A DNA stretch of 64,000 nucleotides from Phorcus lineatus (lineage: Eukaryota > Mollusca > Gastropoda > Trochida > Trochidae). The notes beneath the pieces are model-generated. The model was not told the DNA's origin, did not search any database, and saw only the letters and a list, made by a program, of their open reading frames with translations. Shown piece after piece: positions 1,691 to 60,849 of this stretch. The position numbers and the translations under genes are program-made. The DNA lies in contig OV121091.1 in assembly GCA_921293015.1 (NCBI GenBank), positions 29,868,839-29,932,838 on the forward strand. Direction: 5' to 3'. How positions within the stretch are numbered: position 1 is the stretch's first letter; each line of letters begins with the position of its first letter.

Positions 1691-1819
1691 AGACTGAATC
1701 TGTCCGTCCATGGTTGGTTCTCGCCATCTCGCTCTGACTATCACATCAGCCGTATACTGTTCTTTGAGCGTATCAATCTCCCCGACCTTGAAGAACTGGA
1801 CGCATACCTGTACCTTCAC
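1691..1819 (-). CDS. Cys-loop ligand-gated ion channel, ligand-binding domain exon
   Basis: A 43-codon internal exon, phase 0 at both ends. It encodes the start of a pentameric ligand-gated channel ligand-binding domain. The core reads FFKVGEIDTLKEQYTADV followed by ARWREP: the first beta strand, its turn, and the strand carrying the conserved Trp and Arg seen in invertebrate Cys-loop channels with a GEIDT-type start. The donor (CAGTCT then gtgagt) is at 1690. The nearest in-frame acceptor (tgcag then GTGAAGG) is at 1820-1824; a second possible acceptor six codons in (tacag then GTATGC) would give a shorter exon. The product would be a subunit of a membrane channel opened by a small ligand. 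Which ligand, and anion or cation selectivity, cannot be told from this exon. The Cys loop and the four membrane helices would lie in exons to the left of the window. The exon's first 20 bases match the unit of the adjoining minisatellite. Confidence 0.8.
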
Positions 1820-2690
1820 CTGCAACACAATCAGACAATATACCTGTACCATCACCTGAAACACAAACAGACATTATATTTTTATCTTCACCTGAAACAC
1901 AAACATATATTTCACCAGTACCTTCACCTAAAACACAATCAGACAATATACCCGTACCTTCACCCGAAACACAATCAGACAATATACCTGTACCTTCACC
2001 TGCAACACAATCAGACAATATACCCGTACCTTCACCTGCAACACAATCAGACAATATACCTGTACCTTCACCTGCAACACAATCAGACTATATACCCGTA
2101 CCTTCACCTAAAACACAATCAGACAATATACCTGTACCTTCACCTGAAACACAATCAGACAATATACCTGTACCTTCACCTGCAACACAATCAGACTATA
2201 TACCCGTACCTTCACCCGAAACACAATCAGACTATATACCCGTACCTTCACCCGAAACACAATCAGACTATATACCCGTACCTTCACCTGCAACACAATC
2301 AGACAATATACCTGTACCATCACCTGAAACACAAACAGACATTATATTTTTATCTTCACCTGAAACACAATCAGACTATATACCCGTACCTTCACCCGAA
2401 ACACAATCAGACTATATACCCGTACCTTCACCCGAAACACAATCAGACTATATACCCGTACCTTCACCCGAAACACAATCAAACATTATACCATGTACTT
2501 TCAACTAAAACATAGTCAGATAACATAGCCGTACCTTCACCTGAATCACAAAAAGACATTATATCCTTTACCTTCACCTAAAACACAATCTAACCATACA
2601 CAGTACCTGTATCTTCACCTAAAACACAATAAGACATTGTACCTGTACCTCCACCTGAAACACAATCCTACATTATACCTGTACCTTCAC
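1804..2690. repeat. 36-bp minisatellite fused to an exon's 3' splice site
   Basis: Nineteen units of exactly 36 bp run from 1804 to 2487 without a single length change. About five degraded units follow, to roughly 2690. On the plus strand the unit reads ataccygtaccttcaccy, then g/a-aa or gca, then acacaatcagac and a/t-at. Variation sits at a few positions: cct/ccc, gaa/gca/aaa and aat/tat. One two-unit block (1840-1911) recurs with minor change at 2308-2379, 13 units away, so expansion copied multi-unit blocks. On the minus strand each unit carries a pyrimidine-rich run ending in g-t-t-g/t-c-a-g followed by GTGAAGGTACAGGTAT, the same sequence as the acceptor and first bases of the ion-channel exon at 1691-1819. 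The array also overlaps that exon by 16 bp. On the plus strand the units form one uninterrupted reading frame of a 12-residue repeat (VPSPxTQSDNIP type). Confidence 0.95.
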
Positions 2691-29120: not shown

Positions 29121-29540
29121 TGTTTGTTGAAGTTACCTACTGGAACACTATACAATCAGAGGAATATGTTAGACCTGTTTGTTGAAGTTACCTACTGGAA
29201 CACCCTACAAGCAGAGGAATGTGTTAAACCTGTTTGTTGAAGTTACCTACTGGAACACTCTACAAGCAGAGGAATATGTTAGACCTGTTTGTTGAAGTTA
29301 CCTACTGGAACACCCTACAAGCAGAGGAATATGTTAGACCTGTTTGTTGAAGTGACCTACTGGACCACTATACAAGCAGAGGAATATGTTAGACCTGTTT
29401 GTTGAAGTGACCTACTGGACCACTATACAAGCAGAGGAATATGTTAGACCTGTTTGTTGAAGTGACCTACTGGACCACTATACAAGCAGAGGAATATGTT
29501 AGACCTGTTTGTTGAAGTGACCTACTGGAACATGGTTCAA
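29121..29540. repeat. 55-bp minisatellite, about 7.6 units
   Basis: The string tgtttgttga begins at 29121, 29176, 29231, 29286, 29341, 29396, 29451 and 29506, exactly 55 bp apart each time. Units differ by a few substitutions (gttacc or gtgacc, ggaacac or ggaccac, ccctac or tatac). The units starting at 29341, 29396 and 29451 are identical, so the right half was copied most recently. The array stops abruptly at about 29540. Confidence 0.95.
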
Positions 29541-59410: not shown

Positions 59411-59733
59411 GTAAGAATACTTTACCCTATCGTAGCCATTACAGACTTAAAAGAAATCACTACTCATATCATGAGTATCAAAATATGTTTACGAGTTTAA
59501 TCATAAATGGTGAAAAATACAAATGGTAACTAAATTACGATTAGCTACTTTCTGATATATATTAAAACGTAACTACATGTTTCTCTTCTAAATAAGATGA
59601 ATACAATTTGAATTTTAACGTAAATTCATTAATCATTTACTCAATTCTGTTATTACTTGATATAAAGGTAAATGAGAAATTGACTCTTTAATGTTATCTT
59701 CGAAAATTCAAGCCTATCCCTTTGTCACTGCAG

Positions 59734-60849
59734 GAAGTGGATACCAAAGTTTATCAAGAAAGAAATATTCATTTGCAAAGGGCATGTAAAAGGGTACAAG
59801 CAACACTGGGTCGAGTCAATGGTAAATCCCTGTCGCACATGTGGACTCTACAGAAACCACCAATCGTTTTTTGTCCGGCATATAAAGCCGGAACTACTTT
59901 TTGGGCAAAAGTATTGCATGTGCTAAGACTTGATGATTCAAGACTGTTGTCCCCGTTTCATGTGTTTGACAGCTTTTCATTACAACATAACTTAACCCTA
60001 CTGTCACACCAGTTCGTTACTTTTTCGTCTGTTCCAACAAGGTATTTGGATAATTTCATGAAGTTCTTATTTGTGAGGAATCCATATCAAAGACTGTTTT
60101 CTGTGTATGTAGATAAAGTGTTGGCACCCAACAACTTTTTTGTGGAGTATGGATCCAAAGTTAAACTGAGTTCAAGAAATGATTCCACGAATGACGATCC
60201 TTTGTGTGCCACTGATATGACGTTTAAGGAGTTCATCACATCAATTCTAGATACCAGTGTTCTTGAGAAACATTTGGTACCCATGCATAAATTGTGTCAT
60301 GTTTGTCATATAAAGTATGACATAATAGGCAAGTTTGAAACTTTTCAACAAGATGTCGGTCATGTGTTGAAGAAAATTGGCAGTCTCAATCAAAGACTTA
60401 CTTTCAAGAACTTGGACTACGAGAAGCGTCTGGATATTTTGTTATATCAGGTGATCCGAGCATTTAAGCTTGAAACGAATTGGGGGAAATGCCTCACGAA
60501 ACATTCTGCCTGGGCTAGGCTCTGGAGACAGCTTCAGATATCGGGCTTTATCAACAAGGAACAAAGCTACAATTTATCCAAGGAAGAGAGTGAACGTATT
60601 ACAATGGCAGATTACATTAATATGGCTCTGAAAGCCTTTAAAGTTTCTGATTGGAGAGCTCATCGCAATAAGCACGAGGCCTTCCTTCAAGCTTACAGTC
60701 AACTATCAAAGAATCAGTTGTCAAGGCTGAGGTCACTATACTTGAAGGACTTTTGGCTCTTCGGCTATGAGGACCGACCTATGGAACTTTTTACAATGCC
60801 AAAACCTCGGCAGGTCGATTTTGATTTTTTTGACGTTATGAGTAAATAA
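59734..60849 (+). CDS. Carbohydrate sulfotransferase, CHST8-14 type, catalytic exon
   Basis: This last coding exon follows the acceptor tttgtcactgcag and ends at TAA 60847-60849. With exons 1 and 2 it gives a 453-residue type II Golgi enzyme. The enzyme moves sulfate from PAPS to a sugar chain, likely a glycosaminoglycan or N-acetylhexosamine glycan. The 5'-phosphosulfate-binding loop is CPAYKAGTTFW (residues 129-139). The 3'-phosphate-binding motif is FVRNPYQRLFSVY (195-207). The block HLVPMHKLCHVCHIKYDIIG (262-281) and the ending LYLKDFWLFGY (417-427) are marks of the CHST8-14/HNK-1 sulfotransferase family. Possible N-glycosylation sites are at Asn168, 231 and 362. The segment 300-405 is longer than in vertebrate members, a common trait of the expanded molluscan relatives. 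Which sugar position is sulfated cannot be told. The gene looks intact. Confidence 0.95.
   Translation, partial: EVDTKVYQERNIHLQRACKRVQATLGRVNGKSLSHMWTLQKPPIVFCPAYKAGTTFWAKVLHVLRLDDSRLLSPFHVFDSFSLQHNLTLLSHQFVTFSSVPTRYLDNFMKFLFVRNPYQRLFSVYVDKVLAPNNFFVEYGSKVKLSSRNDSTNDDPLCATDMTFKEFITSILDTSVLEKHLVPMHKLCHVCHIKYDIIGKFETFQQDVGHVLKKIGSLNQRLTFKNLDYEKRLDILLYQVIRAFKLETNWGKCLTKHSAWARLWRQLQISGFINKEQSYNLSKEESERITMADYINMALKAFKVSDWRAHRNKHEAFLQAYSQLSKNQLSRLRSLYLKDFWLFGYEDRPMELFTMPKPRQVDFDFFDVMSK

Follow-up and report, generated by a model that had tools for sequence, protein, structure and literature searches.

A minisatellite of splice-junction copies beside a ligand-gated channel exon in Phorcus lineatus

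An exon of a ligand-gated channel gene in the gastropod Phorcus lineatus runs into a 36 bp minisatellite at its acceptor, and each unit of the array combines a copy of the exon start with a copy of the intron end that precedes it (Table 1). The array lies in a window of 64 000 nucleotides (the whole stretch of DNA that was analysed; contig OV121091.1 of assembly GCA_921293015.1), and Tandem Repeats Finder (TRF) gives it 24.4 copies with 84% matches. We consider it probable that it is an intronic minisatellite that arose by duplication of the junction, expanded neutrally and is spliced out with the intron. The head-to-tail units fall within the usual range of minisatellites (units of about 10–100 bp in many copies); the array abuts an exon and contains that exon's splice site, as in a junction VNTR of the ABCA7 type, and a tandem duplication of 20 nt of intron plus 16 nt of exon crosses the intron–exon boundary. 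A first-pass annotation of this DNA had ended the array at position 2505; the array itself is borne out, and TRF carries its end on to 2690.

Table 1. Features of the 36 bp array and its exon (window positions) and related arrays elsewhere in the genome (contig positions).
Feature	Position	Strand	Details
Exon, start of ligand-binding domain	1691..1819	(-)	43 codons (VKVQVCVQFFKVGEIDTLKEQYTADVIVRARWREPTMDGQIQS); six paralogous exons
Acceptor AG of the exon	1820..1821	(-)	TTGCAG/GTGAAG; judged real by its position in 6/6 paralogues
Junction-spanning minisatellite, 36 bp × about 24	1804..2690	(-)	Unit of 16 nt from the exon start and 20 nt from the intron end
Units 1 and 0	1820..1891	(-)	Same sequence as units 14 and 13 (2288-2359)
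Decoy acceptor one unit upstream (+36)	1856..1857	(-)	If used, in-frame extension by 12 residues, VMVQVYCLIVLQ
In-frame TAA of unit 1	1874..1876	(-)	Reached from all listed AGs from +66 nt onwards
Decayed intron-side units with indels	2504..2690	(-)	Last ~190 bp of the array
Donor array of the same gene, 32 bp × about 20	C17:29861048-29861703 (L010)		Copies the TM2 exon donor junction
Paralogue acceptor array, 107 bp, about 12 copies (TRF)	C1:10.0 Mb		Exon 4 acceptor + up to 16 nt of exon
Paralogue acceptor array, 49 bp × 6.8	C1:14.52 Mb		Exon 6 acceptor + up to 32 nt of exon
Receptor gene donor array, 23 bp	L057:1403-1517 (C41:15364702-15364816)		Five nearly identical copies

A clean unit reads GTGAAGGTAC(A/G)GGTATATTGTCTGATTGTGTTTCAG on the minus strand. 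Its exon-copy part is GTGAAGGTACAGGTAT or near it, and is followed by the intron-end part, ATTGTCTGATTGTGTTTCAG and variants thereof. The exon itself starts with GTGAAGGTACAGGTAT, which is identical at 16/16 positions to several array units, and the majority base of 18 clean units differs from the exon start at one of these 16 positions. Recounting units 0–18 gave the figures of the first-pass annotation, with AG kept in 13/19 units and GG in the other six (units 4, 11, 12, 16, 17 and 18). The identity of units 1 and 0 to units 14 and 13 reads as the trace of a multi-unit duplication, a past rearrangement inside the array.

The genome searched comprises 957.8 Mb in 74 contigs. A 23-mer that spans the junction has 23 matches in it with three mismatches or fewer, all inside the 36 bp array, and the reversed control of this 23-mer has none under the same limit; a 30-mer of the unit has 15 matches genome-wide with two mismatches or fewer, again all inside the array. 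Judged by these searches, the unit is confined to a single locus in 958 Mb and the match between array and exon is not a matter of chance. A dispersed repeat as the source of the unit is ruled out by the lack of any unit match outside the array. Using the protein sequence of the exon, we found six paralogous exons in the genome. An AG stands directly before the same codon in all six, three of them start with V-x-V and one with P-K-V, and the 36 bp array was not found in the 100 nt upstream of any of them. One paralogue (L017) has an unrelated array (41 bp × 8.8) about 420 nt upstream of its exon 1. Because the acceptor is at the same codon in 6/6 paralogues that have no such array, the array is taken to be copied from the junction: by this comparison the junction came first and the array derives from it, which upholds the original proposal that a minisatellite had copied the 3′ splice site of an ion-channel exon. 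That the array is older than the exon start is disfavoured by the paralogues, which have the junction without it. Conversely, a pre-existing minisatellite could have spread into the exon and overwritten its start, and the identity of exon start and array over 16 nt would fit this; the splice position shared with six paralogues, the V-x-V start shared with three, the absence of the array there and the lack of a further unit copy anywhere in the genome make such a course highly improbable.

A donor (GTGAGT) starts at position 1690, directly after the exon, and four more exons (labelled 2, 4, 5 and 6) follow downstream on the same strand, open, in order and with AG and GT edges, one of the donors having been placed by its paralogue. 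A candidate exon labelled 3 was a false lead and was dropped. Regular-expression searches for further exons of the channel gene found none. From the splice positions of the paralogues we infer that the array is in an intron. The five joined exons match PF02931 with an E value of 2.2e-8, above its cut-off, and PF02932 with an E value of 1.1e-5 (26.2 bits, below its cut-off of 28.1), and their best solved relative is ELIC (3.6e-16), with an alignment that runs from residue 3. Ligand-binding and membrane domains are present in the order of a pentameric ligand-gated ion channel. A strict Cys-loop receptor has two cysteines flanking the FPFD loop; here the chain reads ...KGTFMENLELDNFPFDVQ/DLTVTV..., with no cysteine at that place. 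By these matches the gene is an ELIC-like pentameric ligand-gated channel without the Cys loop, and of the earlier label ‘Cys-loop channel exon’ the channel stands and the Cys loop falls. The point of insertion is near the start of the channel domain (the ELIC alignment begins at residue 3), and 12 added residues might be tolerated there. Dispersed partial matches to the ligand-binding domain (profile about 40–126) occur at several places on contig C12, several of them with one in-frame stop.

Arrays of the same kind occur at other junctions. The 32 bp donor array of the same gene adjoins the TM2 exon, whose end reads CTCACATACATG/GTGAGT, and the paralogue at C1:10.0 Mb holds decayed copies of three donors as well as its acceptor array. 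The repeated donor of the receptor gene on C41 is presumably at the TM2–TM3 loop; this is the one junction array among the eight receptor matches sampled of at least 153 in this large family (exon edges approximate), and two further receptor scores of 23/36 are weak and unconvincing. In a myosin gene (L059:3230-3690, C17:41.15 Mb), the 400 nt of intron after one exon contain decayed copies of that exon's end and donor; the local alignment score is 74, whereas 200 shuffles reach at most 38 and the reverse complement 20. The myosin sample was 11 of 124 matches with approximate exon edges. Among the kinesins (22 exon matches sampled of at least 123 listed, exon edges approximate), one gene (L045) has a 42 bp tandem duplication in two copies at a donor near C11:48847790 and another (L048) has one gapped match at an acceptor; ungapped probes gave some weaker scores besides. 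Downstream of a paralogue on C13 a 73 bp × 48 array (L042:5987-9517) ends near a pyrimidine-rich CTCAG and is possibly another acceptor array. In the region C2:56253553-57074307, myosin-head matches are numerous and densely packed on both strands, which suggests a tandem family of myosin genes.

In the explanation that we prefer, a 36 bp segment across the junction would have been duplicated in tandem and then expanded, presumably by slippage or unequal exchange. The working acceptor would stay with the exon-side unit, and the other copies would be intronic and removed with the intron; the duplication would be tolerated since the mRNA stays the same as long as one copy remains on the exon side. 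If used, the nearest decoys would add 8 or 12 residues, as their frames indicate, and farther ones, which meet a stop or shift the frame, would give transcripts that are presumably lost by nonsense-mediated decay. The sequences show the same process at other junctions of either type (donor or acceptor), which belong to this gene, to related channel genes and to at least one myosin and at least one kinesin gene.

The first-pass annotation had inferred a natural tandem-acceptor system, in which array length or acceptor choice could alter where the ligand-binding domain begins, or a splicing decoy. In a tuned form of such a system, the cell would choose between the last two or so acceptors and so vary how the channel domain starts, with the length of the array as the tuner. 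The arithmetic of the annotation is correct: the next acceptor upstream is open and would add exactly 12 residues in frame, and only a small extension could be tolerated, as the listed AGs from +66 on run into the TAA of unit 1. The AG at +24 is also open, and among the AGs listed only those at +24 and +36 are open in the frame of the exon; decoys at distances that are not a multiple of three would additionally shift it. Acceptors were scored with a matrix built from only 22 paralogue acceptors (leave-one-out scores −5.5 to 17.1, mean 8.1), on which the real acceptor scores 3.6, below that mean. Eight decoys score at least as high: +36 (5.3), +72 (3.7), +180, +216 and +468 (3.6 each), +324 (3.7), +504 (5.3) and +721 (5.5). 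Because these match or beat the real acceptor, an effect of the decoys on splicing is plausible, and of the earlier suggestions the splicing decoy survives in that form. The tuned system is not supported. The score of the +36 acceptor, its open frame and its place near the start of the channel domain speak for it; against this, every acceptor other than +24 and +36 meets a stop in the exon's frame, the decoy AG is lost in 5/18 units, and the columns look unconstrained (1.31 minority bases per column in the exon copy and 1.40 in the intron copy, which are alike), with no sign in these counts of selection preserving the junction copies. A coding array under protein constraint was likewise rejected, as there are units with TTTTAG and TAA and nearly every variable column alters a residue in the exon's frame. 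Sibling junction arrays have frame-shifting units of 32, 49, 107 and 23 bp, which rules out frame-keeping as a design rule; because these lengths are not multiples of three, the 12 residues in frame look like a one-in-three accident. We therefore regard a tandem-acceptor system as unlikely, and a modest leak to the +36 acceptor as possible.

The units might also act as a series of sites for dual-specific or recursive splicing (AG/GT), from which the array would be removed stepwise or which would yield 12 nt microexons, predicted as AG/GTGAAGGTACAG/GT and encoding VKVQ. There are 44 AGGT in the 900 nt upstream of the exon and seven microexon-like cassettes, one of which is the exon's own start; the donors CAG/GTATAT and CAG/GTGAAG score 9.0 and 7.9, within the range of 26 real donors (−0.3 to 10.7), and dual-specific sites in tandem array are known from UBC (PMC10809524). 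The exon opens with a valine codon, however, so that a GT after the AG needs no special cause, and the sibling acceptor arrays have AG/GA (L040) or AG/CA (paralogue exon 4) and never AG/GT; we judge this reading very unlikely. Hardly credible is the use of unit 0 as an alternative first exon: past the TAA, an ATG (1852-1850) begins a short hydrophobic leader that is in frame with the channel, and ATG GTA CAG ... reads MVQVYCLIVLQVKVQV into the exon, but the same ATG variant is present in unit 13.

Neutral duplication alone leaves an excess of arrays at junctions unexplained, because under a random-seed model only 0.31 of seven arrays are expected to be junction-seeded and four are observed (P 9e-5), or five with a decayed one (exon 6 donor, paralogue A), the assignment being made by judgement from probe matches. 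Leaving out the given array gives 3/6 (P 1.5e-3). Adding an eighth, non-junction array (the 41 bp × 8.8 array of L017, outside the span originally fetched) gives 4/8 (P 1.1e-4, or 2.1e-3 with the given array excluded). The null rates for the 24 and 32 bp units are too high in this model, as seeds wholly in an exon were counted, and all of the tests of junction preference are post hoc. In seven paralogous channel genes, ungapped 36 nt junction probes compared with the neighbouring 2 kb found 71 copies at 9/50 junctions (1.77 expected; reverse-complement control 1), 55 of which come from three arrays (24, 21 and 10); these probes and TRF miss decayed copies, so that the rates are lower bounds. 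A gapped test of 116 exon edges, which is blind within about 50 nt and so misses copies like those of kinesin L045, gave 11 matches, at 9/50 edges in channel genes, 1/44 in kinesins and 1/22 in myosins (reverse-complement control 1/116). Channel genes are richer in junction copies than the kinesin and myosin families.

Counted by point coverage, junctions are repeated no more than other positions, which speaks against such an excess: at least three copies are found at 5/50 junctions versus 528/7585 other positions (P 0.27) and at least one copy at 9/50 versus 866/7585 (P 0.11); against positions outside the listed arrays the latter comparison becomes 9/50 versus 390/7056 (P 0.0016). By TRF edges, only 2/7 arrays overlap an exon (P 0.045). 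Arrays away from junctions occur too, with units of 49 bp (C17, in the channel gene itself), 24 bp (paralogue B) and 41 bp (L017), and there are more in L030, L032, L042, L048, L053 and L059, which disfavours a strict junction rule. The recurrence of junction arrays is clear from these data, and the evidence that junctions are preferred is mixed. We offer only tentatively, as possible but on balance doubtful, the proposal that splice junctions are preferred birthplaces of minisatellites in this genome and that introns grow by repeated boundary duplication at donors and acceptors alike. The rationale is that each junction copy comes with the signals for its splicing and does not alter the mRNA. 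The decayed donor copies in the myosin gene lend the proposal slight additional weight. If it were true, the arrays would keep a continuing record of how splice sites are chosen under a heavy load of decoys.

The closest precedent is the human ABCA7 VNTR, which like the 36 bp array flanks an exon and holds its splice site. It lies in intron 18 (PMC5954066) on the donor side, has a 25 bp unit in 23.7 copies in the reference and includes the exon 18 donor, its first two bases being the donor GT; splicing also uses the donor one unit farther on, and exon 19 is skipped more often the longer the array. Unlike in ABCA7, the unit here carries an acceptor together with 16 nt of exon, and a single gene bears both an acceptor and a donor array. 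In potato RdRp, a study describes intron gain via tandem duplication across an intron–exon boundary, where a duplication across the 3′ splice junction likewise inherits the branch site, tract and AG; it has two copies and a spliced new intron, versus about 24 copies here (PMC4974935). UBC likewise has head-to-tail repeats each with AGGT, which are coding monomers with used sites (PMC10809524), whereas the repeats here are intronic copies of a junction and their sites are candidates. The closely spaced competing sites of TASS (PMC8055015) are similar, but here the candidate sites are many and their spacing is set by the minisatellite unit. Among the titles and abstract openings that searches of open-access literature brought up, we found no report of a gene with several junction-spanning arrays. 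What is new here is the acceptor side, the exon-bearing unit and the additional donor array in the same gene.

Such rows of near-identical splice sites provide a natural experiment on spliceosome choice where decoys score on a par with the real site. Recurrence of junction arrays would offer a route for harmless intron lengthening and would also let alternative splice sites arise ready-made, and the ABCA7 case indicates that an array of this type can alter splicing and disease risk (PMC5954066).

The G+C content is low. Elsewhere in the window, positions 29121-29532 hold a 55 bp × 7.5 array with units 96% alike, and positions 59692-60849 hold an open frame of 385 amino acids, which by its motifs resembles a carbohydrate sulfotransferase.
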